DNA of 64,000 bases from Spizellomyces punctatus DAOM BR117 (lineage: Eukaryota > Chytridiomycota > Chytridiomycetes > Spizellomycetales > Spizellomycetaceae): positions 110,579-174,578 of the forward strand of contig NW_015971550.1 of the NCBI RefSeq assembly GCF_000182565.1, in the 5' to 3' direction. The position numbers were made by a program, and so were the translations under genes. The notes under the pieces were generated by a model, which was not told the origin of the DNA, did no database searches, and worked only from the letters and a program-made list of their open reading frames with translations. Below, one piece after another: positions 31,953-35,436 of the stretch; the first letter of the stretch is position 1, and each line of letters opens with the position of its first letter.

Positions 31953-32227
31953 ATGTCACATTACAAGTCACATTATCCAGCCCTCCTGTACGACCGTATC
32001 ATGAGATAAGATTCAATTTCATATTAAAAATAGATGCAGCCACTGGATCGAATGAGATGAAATGCAAGATGCCTCCCTTGATTTTCAAATGAATGGTTTG
32101 CATTATATGCAGCCATGAACGGATTGCAATTACTATCCCTTGCGGCCATCTATGAGAGGAACTACTCTCCTGTAGCAGTTGCCACCTGCATGACGCTCCA
32201 TGACTCAATATATCGACTCAGTTTTTC

Positions 32228-32234
32228 TATATAA
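32228..32234 (+). promoter_or_regulatory. TATA-like element before an orphan 5' exon
   Basis: TATATAA is followed by a pyrimidine-rich leader and an ATG at 32292. An open stretch ends at a GTATAT donor near 32399, so it resembles the 5' end of a gene. I could not find a downstream exon that joins in phase before the repeat region at 32.6 kb, so no gene is called. Confidence 0.3.
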
Positions 32235-32603
32235 ACCCCCCTCTTCCCCCATCTTGTTTCTTCCTCCCTCGACTCTCGAAGCATCTGCCCAATGCTCAAG
32301 TCCCATCATGAGAATGCCGCTCTGGTGCCGAGGACCTCGTCCGCCCGACAAATACAACATAACCCCTTGCAAACGCTGCTATATTGCTACGATCGCAGGT
32401 ATATCTTGCTGATTTTTCCCACGTGCATATTCCCAGTCCAATTCTGATTTGACTAGTATCTGAAACGTCCTCCGACTAAGAATTTCGGAATCAAAGGGCT
32501 AGTAGGATTTCTCTCGTGGTGGTGGGCGCTAGTTACCCGGTTGACCAACCGTTATCGCATGTGTAATTGTTAGCGATAGTTTTTTTACTTGTAAGGACTT
32601 GGT

Positions 32604-32652
32604 TAGCTAGTTGGCTTTTCCGAACCGGTTCTCGCCGGTTCATTCCCTGGTG
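32604..32652 (+). repeat. Outer copy of the Fanzor-element hairpin repeat, tRNA-like
   Basis: Bases 32615-32652 match 35100-35137 at 36 of 38 positions in direct orientation. The unit contains a perfect 7-bp hairpin: GAACCGG at 32622-32628, a 6-nt loop, and CCGGTTC at 32635-32641. Just upstream, TAGCTAGTTGG (32604-32614) resembles a tRNA A box lacking one base, and GGTTCATTCCC resembles a B box, but the spacing is too short and no acceptor stem exists. It lies about 370 nt outside the left terminal inverted repeat. It is therefore a second, separate copy, perhaps the right end of an older related element. Confidence 0.75.
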
Positions 32653-32928
32653 TGCGCGGCACGACATCGGTTTTTTGCTCGCACACTATTCAATCCGTTA
32701 AGCGTCATTCCCTTTTCAAATGCAAACGTTCAATTGAAGGGAGATAAAAGTCTTGTGATGACTATGATTGAGTAAGCAATATCTCCATTTTAGGAAGGCT
32801 TTCACGTGAACACTATTGAGTGGTTCCTTTTTGGAACGGAGATCCCTGCACATGTGTAGGATCCTTTTTGTAGTTTTTAGGTAGGAGTCGTAGCTGGCAG
32901 TAGCGGTAGTAATGTCTCTGCTTCCCCA

Positions 32929-33023
32929 ATGGCTGCCTAGAGGCTGCCTAATGGCTCCCTGATGGCTGCCTAATGGCCGTCTATCATAGTCTATACGAGT
33001 CCATCCTAGTCTATCCTAGTCCA
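32929..33023 (+). repeat. Tandem array of 11-nt then 10-nt units abutting the Fanzor element
   Basis: Five 11-nt units of the type ATGGCTGCCTA (32929-32983) are followed without gap by four 10-nt units of the type TCCTAGTCTA (32984-33023). The last base lies immediately before the left terminal inverted repeat at 33024. Two further 10-nt units occur directly after the right repeat (from 35174), so the element appears to have inserted into this array. Confidence 0.85.
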
Positions 33024-33053
33024 TAGTGCGGAGCCGATGGGTATTGGCACTAG
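33024..33053 (+). repeat. Left terminal inverted repeat
   Basis: Thirty bases beginning TAGTGCGGAGCC and ending GGCACTAG, the exact reverse complement of 35144-35173. Pairing stops at both edges. It contains the internal palindrome-like CGGAGCCG. Confidence 0.95.
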
Positions 33054-33129
33054 TACATAGATTCCAACCAATTTAATCATAATTTTACTCGATTTAGACT
33101 CATGAACTATGGTTTGATCCAAAAAATCC

Positions 33130-33136
33130 TATATAA
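33130..33136 (+). promoter_or_regulatory. TATA box of the Fanzor gene
   Basis: TATATAA lies about 50 nt upstream of the ATG at 33187 and inside the terminal repeat. The element therefore appears to carry its own promoter and not to rely on host transcription. Confidence 0.5.
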
Positions 33137-33186
33137 GTTGTCGTGCCCATTTTCCCAGGCTTTCATCTTTTCCCACAGATATCATC

Positions 33187-35085
33187 ATGCCGCCAAAGAA
33201 AAAGCAAAAGCTTGAAAAACTCGACAAACCTACTTGCTTACATACCTGCAACAAGACTTCCTTTGCAAAAGCTTTCTTGCCAAACGAGACCTACCGGCAG
33301 CGTCTTCTAGATTACATCGCCATCATCCATCAACTCGCTGACCACGCTTCCCACGCTCTCAAATTCTACATCCTATCTGCACCAACCTTTCCCACGGTAA
33401 ATGAAGATACAATCGAAGCAATTCTCTATCTTCTCAACAAAGGAGAGGCTTGGCATCCAAGAAAGGAAGCAAAGAAGGCATGGCGGGATTGTTTGCTGCC
33501 ATATGTTCAACGGTACTGCCAAATCGTCGGCTTTGTTCACCCAAATCTACGAGGCGAGCAGCAATCAGTCAATTACCTGACAGCGAGTATGATGACGAAC
33601 CTGAAAGTCAACGTTCAAGAGCATTTCATGCAGATGCTCCTTCGGTATATCAATCTGCGGCTCGACGTGAAGGGACAGAAGCAGCGACTGCCACTGAAAA
33701 GCGATGCGCGGCAAGCTTTCTTTACTCGGCTACGCTACTTGAAGTCGGTTTTCCTTTTCGAAACTATGCCAGAATCACTGGATGACTTGAGCATTCTTGA
33801 AAACGAGATTTTAGAAGAGATCTGGACACTTAACCTGCCATTTCCTGATCAAGACAAGCCGCTTGCCTACCTCATTGCCATCGACGCGATGTCCTTCTTT
33901 CCTGCATACTGCCGACTGTCAAAGTTGTTCGAGCAGCAAGGTTTTCAACAGTTCAGCGCGATACCTCTGCGCCGCTCTCTCATCCAAAGCCATATTCGCA
34001 TCGACACGGTCATTCTCTACGCCCACATCCTCTGCATCACCCGCCAAGAAGCAGAAGCCGTAGAGAAGGTCGATTTATGGTTGCGCGTCTGTAATCTACG
34101 TACCAAAGCTTTTCGGTCTCGCTGTGGTATGCATTTTGAAGGCTCGATCACGACGGACGGAACCTCGGTGTCTGTATACCTAAAGCACCCAGAAGCTGAC
34201 AAGTACGGAAAGCGCGGAGCGAGAAAGTCAGCAAAGGCTCTAGCAGCTGAGGTGAAGGCGCTGTATGTGGAAAACAACTTACCTGCTTGTCGAGCAGCAG
34301 AGAATGTCGTCGTTATCGACCCAAACAAACGCGACATTCTCTACTGCCAAGACAGTAATGGTACAACGTTTCGCTACACCGCCAATCAACGCTGCAAGGA
34401 GACTGGAAGCCGTCGATTTGCAAAAGAACGGCAGCGGATGAAAGCTGGCGGTATTGACCTCATAGAATCACGTATCCCAAGCCACAAGACGATGAACCTC
34501 ATAGACTTCATGCGTTACCTTCTCGTTCGCCGCGCTGATTGGGATCGTCGAAAGGAGTTCTACTCCCACCCTGCTCATACTCGATGGAAATGGCACGCAT
34601 TCATAAACCGTCAGAAGAGCGAATCAGACCTCATATCCAACATGCGCAACAAGTACGGCGAAAACTTCACCATTGTGATGGGTGATTGGAGCGACGCCGG
34701 TCGAACTGCGAGATTTCAGACCTCATCAAAGACGAAAGGTTGGCGCACCCTCTTAAAGCGGAACAGGATCAACTGCTTCCTTCTCGACGAGTACAAGACC
34801 TCATCTGTCTGCCCTCGCTGTTTGGCCTCATCTGATGACTTCCTTGAAAAGGACTTCAAAACACGACCTCATTCAAGACCTTGGCGCCGTCGCGAAGGCA
34901 AGATTGAAAAAGTCCATGGATTGCTGGGTTGTACCAACCCTAACTGTCAGCAAGCCTGGACGATGCGCTACTGGAACAGGGACACGCTGAGCACCTGCAA
35001 CATGCTGATGATCGTGCAATCAATGTTGGATGGACACGGTAGACCAGAGGTGTTCAGTCGGAGGAGTGTTCCAGCCGTAGCGTAG
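33187..35085 (+). CDS. Fanzor (Fanzor1-like) RNA-guided nuclease, TnpB-related, 632 aa
   Basis: One intact, intron-less frame; the only other comparable single-exon genes here are the WD40 and zinc-finger genes. The N-terminus has an SV40-like nuclear signal (PPKKKQKL). The C-terminal half is a split RuvC nuclease. RuvC-I has D378 in VVIDPNKRD. A GDWS motif stands at D500 where TnpB has its second acidic position. A DEYKTSSVCPRC segment offers E535 as a possible rearranged catalytic glutamate. A four-cysteine zinc knuckle is C542, C545, C582 and C587 (CPRC...CTNPNC), and RuvC-III has D599 in YWNRDTLSTCN. This architecture and order are those of Fanzor proteins, eukaryotic relatives of IS200/IS605 TnpB that cut DNA using an element-encoded RNA. 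The N-terminal 370 residues should form the recognition lobe. Activity is inferred; catalytic residues appear intact. Confidence 0.9.
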   Translation: MPPKKKQKLEKLDKPTCLHTCNKTSFAKAFLPNETYRQRLLDYIAIIHQLADHASHALKFYILSAPTFPTVNEDTIEAILYLLNKGEAWHPRKEAKKAWRDCLLPYVQRYCQIVGFVHPNLRGEQQSVNYLTASMMTNLKVNVQEHFMQMLLRYINLRLDVKGQKQRLPLKSDARQAFFTRLRYLKSVFLFETMPESLDDLSILENEILEEIWTLNLPFPDQDKPLAYLIAIDAMSFFPAYCRLSKLFEQQGFQQFSAIPLRRSLIQSHIRIDTVILYAHILCITRQEAEAVEKVDLWLRVCNLRTKAFRSRCGMHFEGSITTDGTSVSVYLKHPEADKYGKRGARKSAKALAAEVKALYVENNLPACRAAENVVVIDPNKRDILYCQDSNGTTFRYTANQRCKETGSRRFAKERQRMKAGGIDLIESRIPSHKTMNLIDFMRYLLVRRADWDRRKEFYSHPAHTRWKWHAFINRQKSESDLISNMRNKYGENFTIVMGDWSDAGRTARFQTSSKTKGWRTLLKRNRINCFLLDEYKTSSVCPRCLASSDDFLEKDFKTRPHSRPWRRREGKIEKVHGLLGCTNPNCQQAWTMRYWNRDTLSTCNMLMIVQSMLDGHGRPEVFSRRSVPAVA

Positions 35086-35099
35086 ATTAGTTAGATTAC

Positions 35100-35137
35100 C
35101 TTTTCCGAACCGGTTGTCGCCGGTTCAATCCCTGGTG
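35100..35137 (+). repeat. Inner copy of the 38-nt hairpin repeat
   Basis: Direct repeat of 32615-32652 with two mismatches, one in the hairpin loop (TTGTCG versus TTCTCG) and one just 3' of it. Both stem arms are identical in the two copies, consistent with selection for the hairpin or with recent common origin. Confidence 0.9.
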
Positions 35138-35143
35138 CGGGTG

Positions 35144-35173
35144 CTAGTGCCAATACCCATCGGCTCCGCACTA
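35144..35173 (+). repeat. Right terminal inverted repeat
   Basis: Exact reverse complement of the left repeat at 33024-33053, ending CCGCAC followed by TA. The 10-nt host repeat units resume at 35174. Confidence 0.95.
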
Positions 35174-35436
35174 CGATAGTCTACGCTCGTCCATGGCTGT
35201 GTGTCCATTCAATCTTGTAGTGTAGAAAGAGCCGCTGGTTTTGGGGGGCTGACGTCTGTGGCTGTGCCATGCTGTGGGATGGCGCAGGTTGCTAAACTCA
35301 TGTGACACGCGTATGAATCAATTTTTAACTTTAAGGAAAGAGCGACAAAAAGTAGAAGGACCGTTTCCCGTTATCTTTCCCGCTATTTGACGTTCGAGCG
35401 CCATTTCCCAACTTTCAAGCATCTCGAGGGCAGGCA

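Follow-up and report, generated by a model that had tools for sequence, protein, structure and literature searches.

Left-sided CA at the ends of Fanzor-bearing SPu-1 elements and a candidate DDE_3 mover in Spizellomyces punctatus

A 64,000-nucleotide stretch of the genome of Spizellomyces punctatus DAOM BR117 (contig NW_015971550.1, positions 110,579 to 174,578; hereafter the window) contains an intact Fanzor1 gene, which is carried by a member of the published SPu-1 family of which the nuclease and the biochemistry are already known. The reading that we favour, with a probability of about 0.6, is that SPu-1 is a passenger moved in trans by a DDE_3 transposase, and that homing by Fanzor retains only those insertions which have CATA at their left junction. 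What goes beyond the available text of the literature is a candidate transposase, a contrast between left and right ends in the occurrence of CA, and CpG decay together with purifying selection on the long ORFs.

SPu-1 was named as the prototype Fanzor element, of approximately 2,100 bp with 33-bp repeats and putative TA duplications, and was described with 17 full-length copies, nine of which had intact ORFs (Bao & Jurka 2013). In S. punctatus, 42 Fanzor loci (19 of them full length) and 134 ghosts have been counted, and CA was noted upstream of the left repeat in Fanzor loci and ghosts alike (Saito 2023). According to the same source, SpuFz1 binds RNA from the right end of the element, the tail of which corresponds to flanking DNA, and cuts DNA matching this guide behind 5'-CATA, the TAM measured for the enzyme. 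The available text of Saito 2023 states that a transposase bounded by SPu-1 repeats was not encountered, and leaves the biological role of eukaryotic Fanzors open. In other Fanzor1s, the repeat and the TSD form part of the RNA scaffold (Yoon 2023). Among the titles and abstract openings listed for Fanzor and for Spizellomyces transposases, none names a driver for SPu-1.

The sequence-only reading had proposed a complete gene for the RNA-guided nuclease Fanzor, carried by a fungal transposable element, and this is borne out by the comparison with known structures. The frame is open throughout, and the best match of its product among PDB chains (phmmer) is SpuFz1 (8gkh; E = 0, 1267 bits) over residues 2-632, by which the window protein is, on sequence comparison, a Fanzor1, and an unrelated zinc-finger or RNase H-like protein is ruled out. 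The Fanzor1 from Parasitella (9cf0) matches the same ORF at 8.8e-47. D378, E535 and D599 lie where they had been placed and align with D383, E541 and D606 of SpuFz1, while N380 corresponds to N385 in the phmmer alignment; in SpuFz1, these four residues coordinate two magnesium ions (Saito 2023), and structures of the enzyme are also available from Xu 2024. Whether the three acidic residues cluster in space is answered, through the aligned triad, by the solved structure of this close homologue. The zinc knuckle is likewise present, as C542-x2-C545 and C582-x4-C587, and the proposed N-terminal nuclear signal agrees with a basic MPPKKKQK stretch which appears NLS-like by direct reading. The RuvC acidic triad and the zinc finger are intact in 10 of the 11 ORFs compared, the eleventh (L083) being without the C-terminal part. 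Scans of the window protein with Pfam and PADLOC returned 0 families; a search of the protein collection, in which 8000 candidates were scored, found 53 relatives, led by entries from S. punctatus DAOM BR117, and precomputed annotation places PF26935 on 52 of them. One Fanzor relative (P0043) is found on a 3.3-kb contig labelled as a Bacteroidota MAG, which is possibly eukaryotic contamination.

The element spans positions 33024-35173 of the window, and both of its ends are preserved, as had been claimed for it, in the form of two 33-nt inverted repeats which are 97% complementary (Table 1). With TA at either end in addition to the terminal inverted repeats, the features of a Tc1/mariner-type passenger are present, the status of TA as a target duplication resting on Bao & Jurka 2013, where it is termed putative. 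The right junction lies between CACTA and CGATAGTC. No transposase was found inside the element, in which, apart from the Fanzor gene, only two overlapping frames, 111 and 106 aa long, lie between the repeats. Close to its left end, at 32923-32983, there are tandem 11-bp repeats of the GGCTGCCTAAT type; imperfect short repeats come after them, and it is into these that the element seems to be inserted.

Table 1. Features of the window SPu-1 element, of the neighbouring ghost and of the candidate transposon. Positions are those of the window unless another sequence is named.
Feature	Position	Strand	Basis
Fanzor1 nuclease ORF, intact, 632 aa, SpuFz1 paralogue	33187..35085	+	ORF listing, phmmer, alignment
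Left terminal inverted repeat, starts with TA	33024..33056	+	inverted-repeat search
Right terminal inverted repeat, ends with TA; also 3' part of the omega-RNA scaffold	35141..35173	-	
CATA at left junction; equals published SpuFz1 TAM; last two bases are the element-end TA	33022..33025	+	
Predicted omega-RNA scaffold, 75 nt, z -4.15	35099..35173	+	fold; conserved block
15-nt guide from right flank	35174..35188	+	
Ghost SPu-1 element, eroded, separate, without Fanzor gene; left end unrecognisable, right end kept	~32030..32688	+	
Ghost omega-RNA scaffold, still foldable	32614..32688	+	fold of 32614-32704: z -4.04, 1/200 shuffles as good
Candidate DDE_3 transposon, ~3 kb, single copy	G000:C3:531,540-534,565 (L071 2241-5266)		
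Candidate transposase gene	L071 4045-5262	minus	
35-bp repeats of the candidate transposon, 91% identical	L071 2239-2276, 5232-5268		

For the omega-RNA, the scaffold length of 75 nt was adopted from Saito 2023. The scaffold folds at -31.2 kcal/mol, with 0 of 200 shuffles as good, and the conserved block to which it belongs stops at the right repeat: among the 40 matches scored out of 157 candidates, 38 end between 35173 and 35179, the self match continues past the right end, and one other stops earlier. The outermost bases of the right repeat form pairs with those of the conserved omega-RNA core. In 35 distinct scaffolds from Fanzor copies and ghosts, which are related copies and therefore represent fewer independent events, stem-2 pairs 1-7 are paired in 34 or 35 cases. 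Double changes are seen at pair 6, which is either T-A (24) or C-G (11), and at pair 7, which is A-T (13), G-C (12) or G-T (9). Pairing is kept in only 24 of the scaffolds at pair 8 and in only 16 at pair 9. Scaffolds with a 3' end outside the typed end patterns were omitted from this set.

The evidence bearing on retention comes from the two bases adjoining the terminal TA, taken in the direction of the element. CA occupies this place at 33 of 39 left ends (18/19 for Fanzor copies, 15/20 for ghosts) and only at 5 of 61 right ends (4/34 and 1/27, respectively), a contrast with a Fisher p of 3.5e-15; as background, CA precedes 388 of the 5052 TA sites in the window (7.7%). The count covers unique flanks in the examined loci, at ends agreeing in at least 24 of 30 positions with one of five end consensuses, so that ends below 24/30, which belong to older ghosts, are excluded. 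CA itself is already in Saito 2023, and it is the contrast between left and right that is new here. With end repeats so nearly alike, a transposase acting symmetrically would be expected to place CA on the one side as readily as on the other, while a filter requiring CATA ahead of the guide sequence would leave the left-sided pattern that is observed. The asymmetry fits a Fanzor which keeps only self-targetable insertions.

The alternative that CATA is a mere insertion preference of the transposase, with no part for Fanzor in retention, is considered unlikely. Some target preference does exist, as indicated by weak preferences elsewhere in the flanks: T occupies position -4 in 35 of 61 right flanks (T in 18 and A in 15 of the 39 left flanks), and A or T is found at position -1 in 49 of 61 right flanks; position -3 on the left carries 0.26 bits, and the flank positions other than CA do not exceed 0.39 bits. 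Such a preference should nevertheless act on both ends alike, given that a symmetric enzyme should not discriminate between repeats as complementary as these, yet CA is confined largely to one side; a transposase reading subterminal DNA could tell the left from the right end. More doubtful than this is the possibility that CA is part of the mobile unit, the element then beginning with CATAGTG and spreading by copying without TA duplication. It would be in line with the six left-end exceptions, four of which are one base off CA (TA or AA), the outcome expected of decay following insertion, but it is at odds with the description of putative TA target duplications (Bao & Jurka 2013) and with the fact that CATA equals a TAM which was measured independently (Saito 2023).

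When the CATA of the left flank of the window element is joined to its right flank, the result is a perfect target sequence, which the occupied site is not. A search with CATA and the 15-nt guide of the window copy, allowing for up to 2 mismatches, gave a single match, at its own locus with ACTA replacing CATA, and the guides of the C13 copy and of ghost L043, searched in the same manner, also matched only their own loci with ACTA for CATA. With ACTA before the guide, the occupied site is without a TAM. The three guides searched (two Fanzor, one ghost), out of about 175, found no further match within 2 mismatches, which speaks against the least probable of the alternatives considered, namely that ghost guides direct Fanzor in trans to other transposons or loci. 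This had been raised in Saito 2023, where ghost scaffolds from four loci were functional in human cells, and the foldable scaffolds kept in ghosts, as seen in stem-2 pairs 1-7, would be consistent with it.

Joined flanks were also searched in the genome for empty sites, and none was found for 13 of 13 Fanzor insertions: 26 of the 27 matches were the insertions' own halves, and the 27th was a stub of a ghost flank. As no empty site was found, excision and homing are inferred. Under the favoured reading of a passenger retained by homing, SPu-1 would be non-autonomous, with an IS630/Tc1-like DDE_3 transposase acting on it in trans. Where excision has left a site empty, or where a sister or allele lacks the element, Fanzor would cut that site, and repair from the occupied copy would then restore the element. 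Only left-CATA insertions would be capable of such restoration, so only those would persist.

The best candidate for the mover is, judging by its sequence, a DDE_3 (IS630/Tc1-like) element on C3, the ends of which are related, not identical, to those of SPu-1. A search of the genome for DDE_3 (PF13358) gave two matches, of which one lies in an open frame of 408 aa and the other in a short piece with a stop, and a protein search with the 408-aa transposase found its own gene and three poor remnants, with remnants on C1 and C7 among them; since six-frame searches miss intron-split genes, the count of one intact DDE_3 gene is to be read with this in mind. A genome search with PF03184 gave 0 matches, its control being equally without a match. 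The candidate transposase carries DDE_3 (1.6e-12) and HTH_23 domains, and the protein collection contains 37 relatives. In an alignment of 15 sequences, the candidate among them, its residues D210 and D290 do not vary and E335 is conserved to at least 90%.

Within 3 mismatches, the repeat of the C3 element is found in only these two places in the genome. In register from the TA, it agrees with the SPu-1 end and the ghost left end at 20/30 positions each and with the ghost right end at 19/30, as against only 16-17/30 for the second ghost end type (see below). An agreement of 20/30 is reached in 6 (SPu-1 end) and 9 (ghost left end) of 200,000 shuffles, and among the 32,177 non-end TA sites of the loci examined, which overlap so that the sites are partly non-independent, none exceeds 18/30 except the C3 repeat itself. 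At the DDE_3 remnants L070 and L091, SPu-1-type ends were not found, with nothing above 18/30 against the end consensuses at the former and nothing at or above 18/30 at the latter. The C3 element sits between two inverted ghosts which are 82-83% alike. Its target duplication is imperfect in the TA register (TA vs TT, with AAGTG at the right end); if the repeat is taken to start with AGTG, there is a perfect 4-bp TATT duplication. The element also holds a 244-aa ORF, for which the only match is a sub-threshold one to SUKH-3.

A fuller version, which we hold tentatively and at somewhat less than even odds, is that of a two-part selfish system, in which the rare C3 element would move SPu-1 and the ghosts, Fanzor and its guide would act as a private homing endonuclease for each site, and only left-CATA insertions would survive. 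As part of this system, the end repeat would double as the site of the transposase and as a stem of the omega-RNA.

Between the end of the window ghost and the start of the Fanzor element downstream lie 335 bp. The ghost has its own guide and aligns to other ghosts over approximately 700 alignment columns. Like the ghosts of Saito 2023, it and 28 further ghost-type copies share the omega-RNA core in units lacking Fanzor. The right ends of the ghosts examined are of two main types, ...TCACCTCTACACTA and ...TTGCCAATACACTA, with a few variants, so that at least two ghost end types are seen here, compared with a single ghost repeat, with seven differing positions, described in the available text of Saito 2023. 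The second type is also found at the right end of the decayed Fanzor copies L050 and L051 (C10 and C9, respectively), and the copy on C10 has a matching left end too, with CATA and an additional A ahead of GTG. The second class of ghosts is thereby linked to parents which carry Fanzor; L050 and L051, together with L094, another decayed Fanzor copy on which this end type was observed, are possible parents by the resemblance of their ends. In ghosts L040-L067, the DNA upstream of the omega-RNA shows a TATA-like box along with a short stretch resembling MRMxxWWCRGPRPPD. A conserved ghost mini-protein (MRMxxWWCRGPRPPD...) is not claimed, the frame being broken in several of the 29 ghosts.

Searching the genome with the window protein brought up 80 candidates, of which 70 were scored; they gave 71 matches, with fragments of one locus counted apart, and 14 of these matches cover 98% or more of the query and contain no stop. 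Among the loci examined, the nearest full-length copy is the one on C13, with 97.7% identity across 2150 aligned bases, and its ORF has 98.2% nucleotide and 97.9% protein identity to that of the window; the next ORF is at 89.2% in nucleotides, and a partial copy (L026) has 95.4% identity over 803 bases. The window and C13 ORFs are the closest of 55 pairs, the next pair having 91.0% identity in protein. The suggestion that the element is recently mobile, with near-identical copies to be looked for across the genome, is accordingly borne out only in part. The two form the youngest pair among the ORFs compared, and there is no burst.

The median dN/dS over the 55 pairs of 11 distinct long ORFs (window included) is 0.15, with a maximum of 0.29, and the long Fanzor ORFs are under purifying selection. 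Other copies show decay at CpG sites: taking the window copy as reference, and in alignments of at least 700 bases between loci some of which overlap, 5% to 62% of its CpG sites have turned into TG or CA, non-CpG change in the same copies being 0.018 to 0.152. The six most decayed loci have a CpG observed/expected ratio of 0.45-0.61. In-match stops are TGA in 74 of 84 cases (6 TAA, 4 TAG), an excess as the change from CGA to TGA would give. This base composition suggests CpG methylation of silenced Fanzor copies. Two diverged Fanzor copies with 61% and 58% identity, C9:617499-619385 and C9:622459-624345 (G000), lie approximately 3 kb apart; beyond the former there is an omega-RNA core with a stem-1 variant (CCAG/CTGG), and no SPu-1-like end is recognisable there.

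The window copy shares with the element of SpuFz1 (PDB 8GKH) the 33-bp repeats, TA ends, CA/CATA, omega-RNA, catalytic residues and genome, but is a distinct paralogue, its ORF being closest to the C13 copy. The Fanzor1-bearing Tc1/mariner elements PGv-1, PUl-1 and PUl-4 resemble SPu-1 in having TA duplications and inverted repeats, and their group likewise has Fanzor-only members which use the ends of a mariner (Bao & Jurka 2013). Unlike in the PGv-1-type elements, the candidate transposase for SPu-1 is in a separate element with related, not identical, ends. TnpB of IS200/IS605 shares with Fanzor an RNA-guided cutting, which in that system helps the element to copy itself back, and also takes its guide from the right flank and has its TAM at the left end (Saito 2023); its mover, however, is the HUH enzyme TnpA, whereas that of SPu-1 would be a DDE enzyme.

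The window copy thus adds one paralogue to the published prototype family. The CA asymmetry and the related ends of the DDE_3 element provide two testable handles on the role of Fanzor in its host, and both concern the organism that is itself the source of a structurally solved Fanzor.
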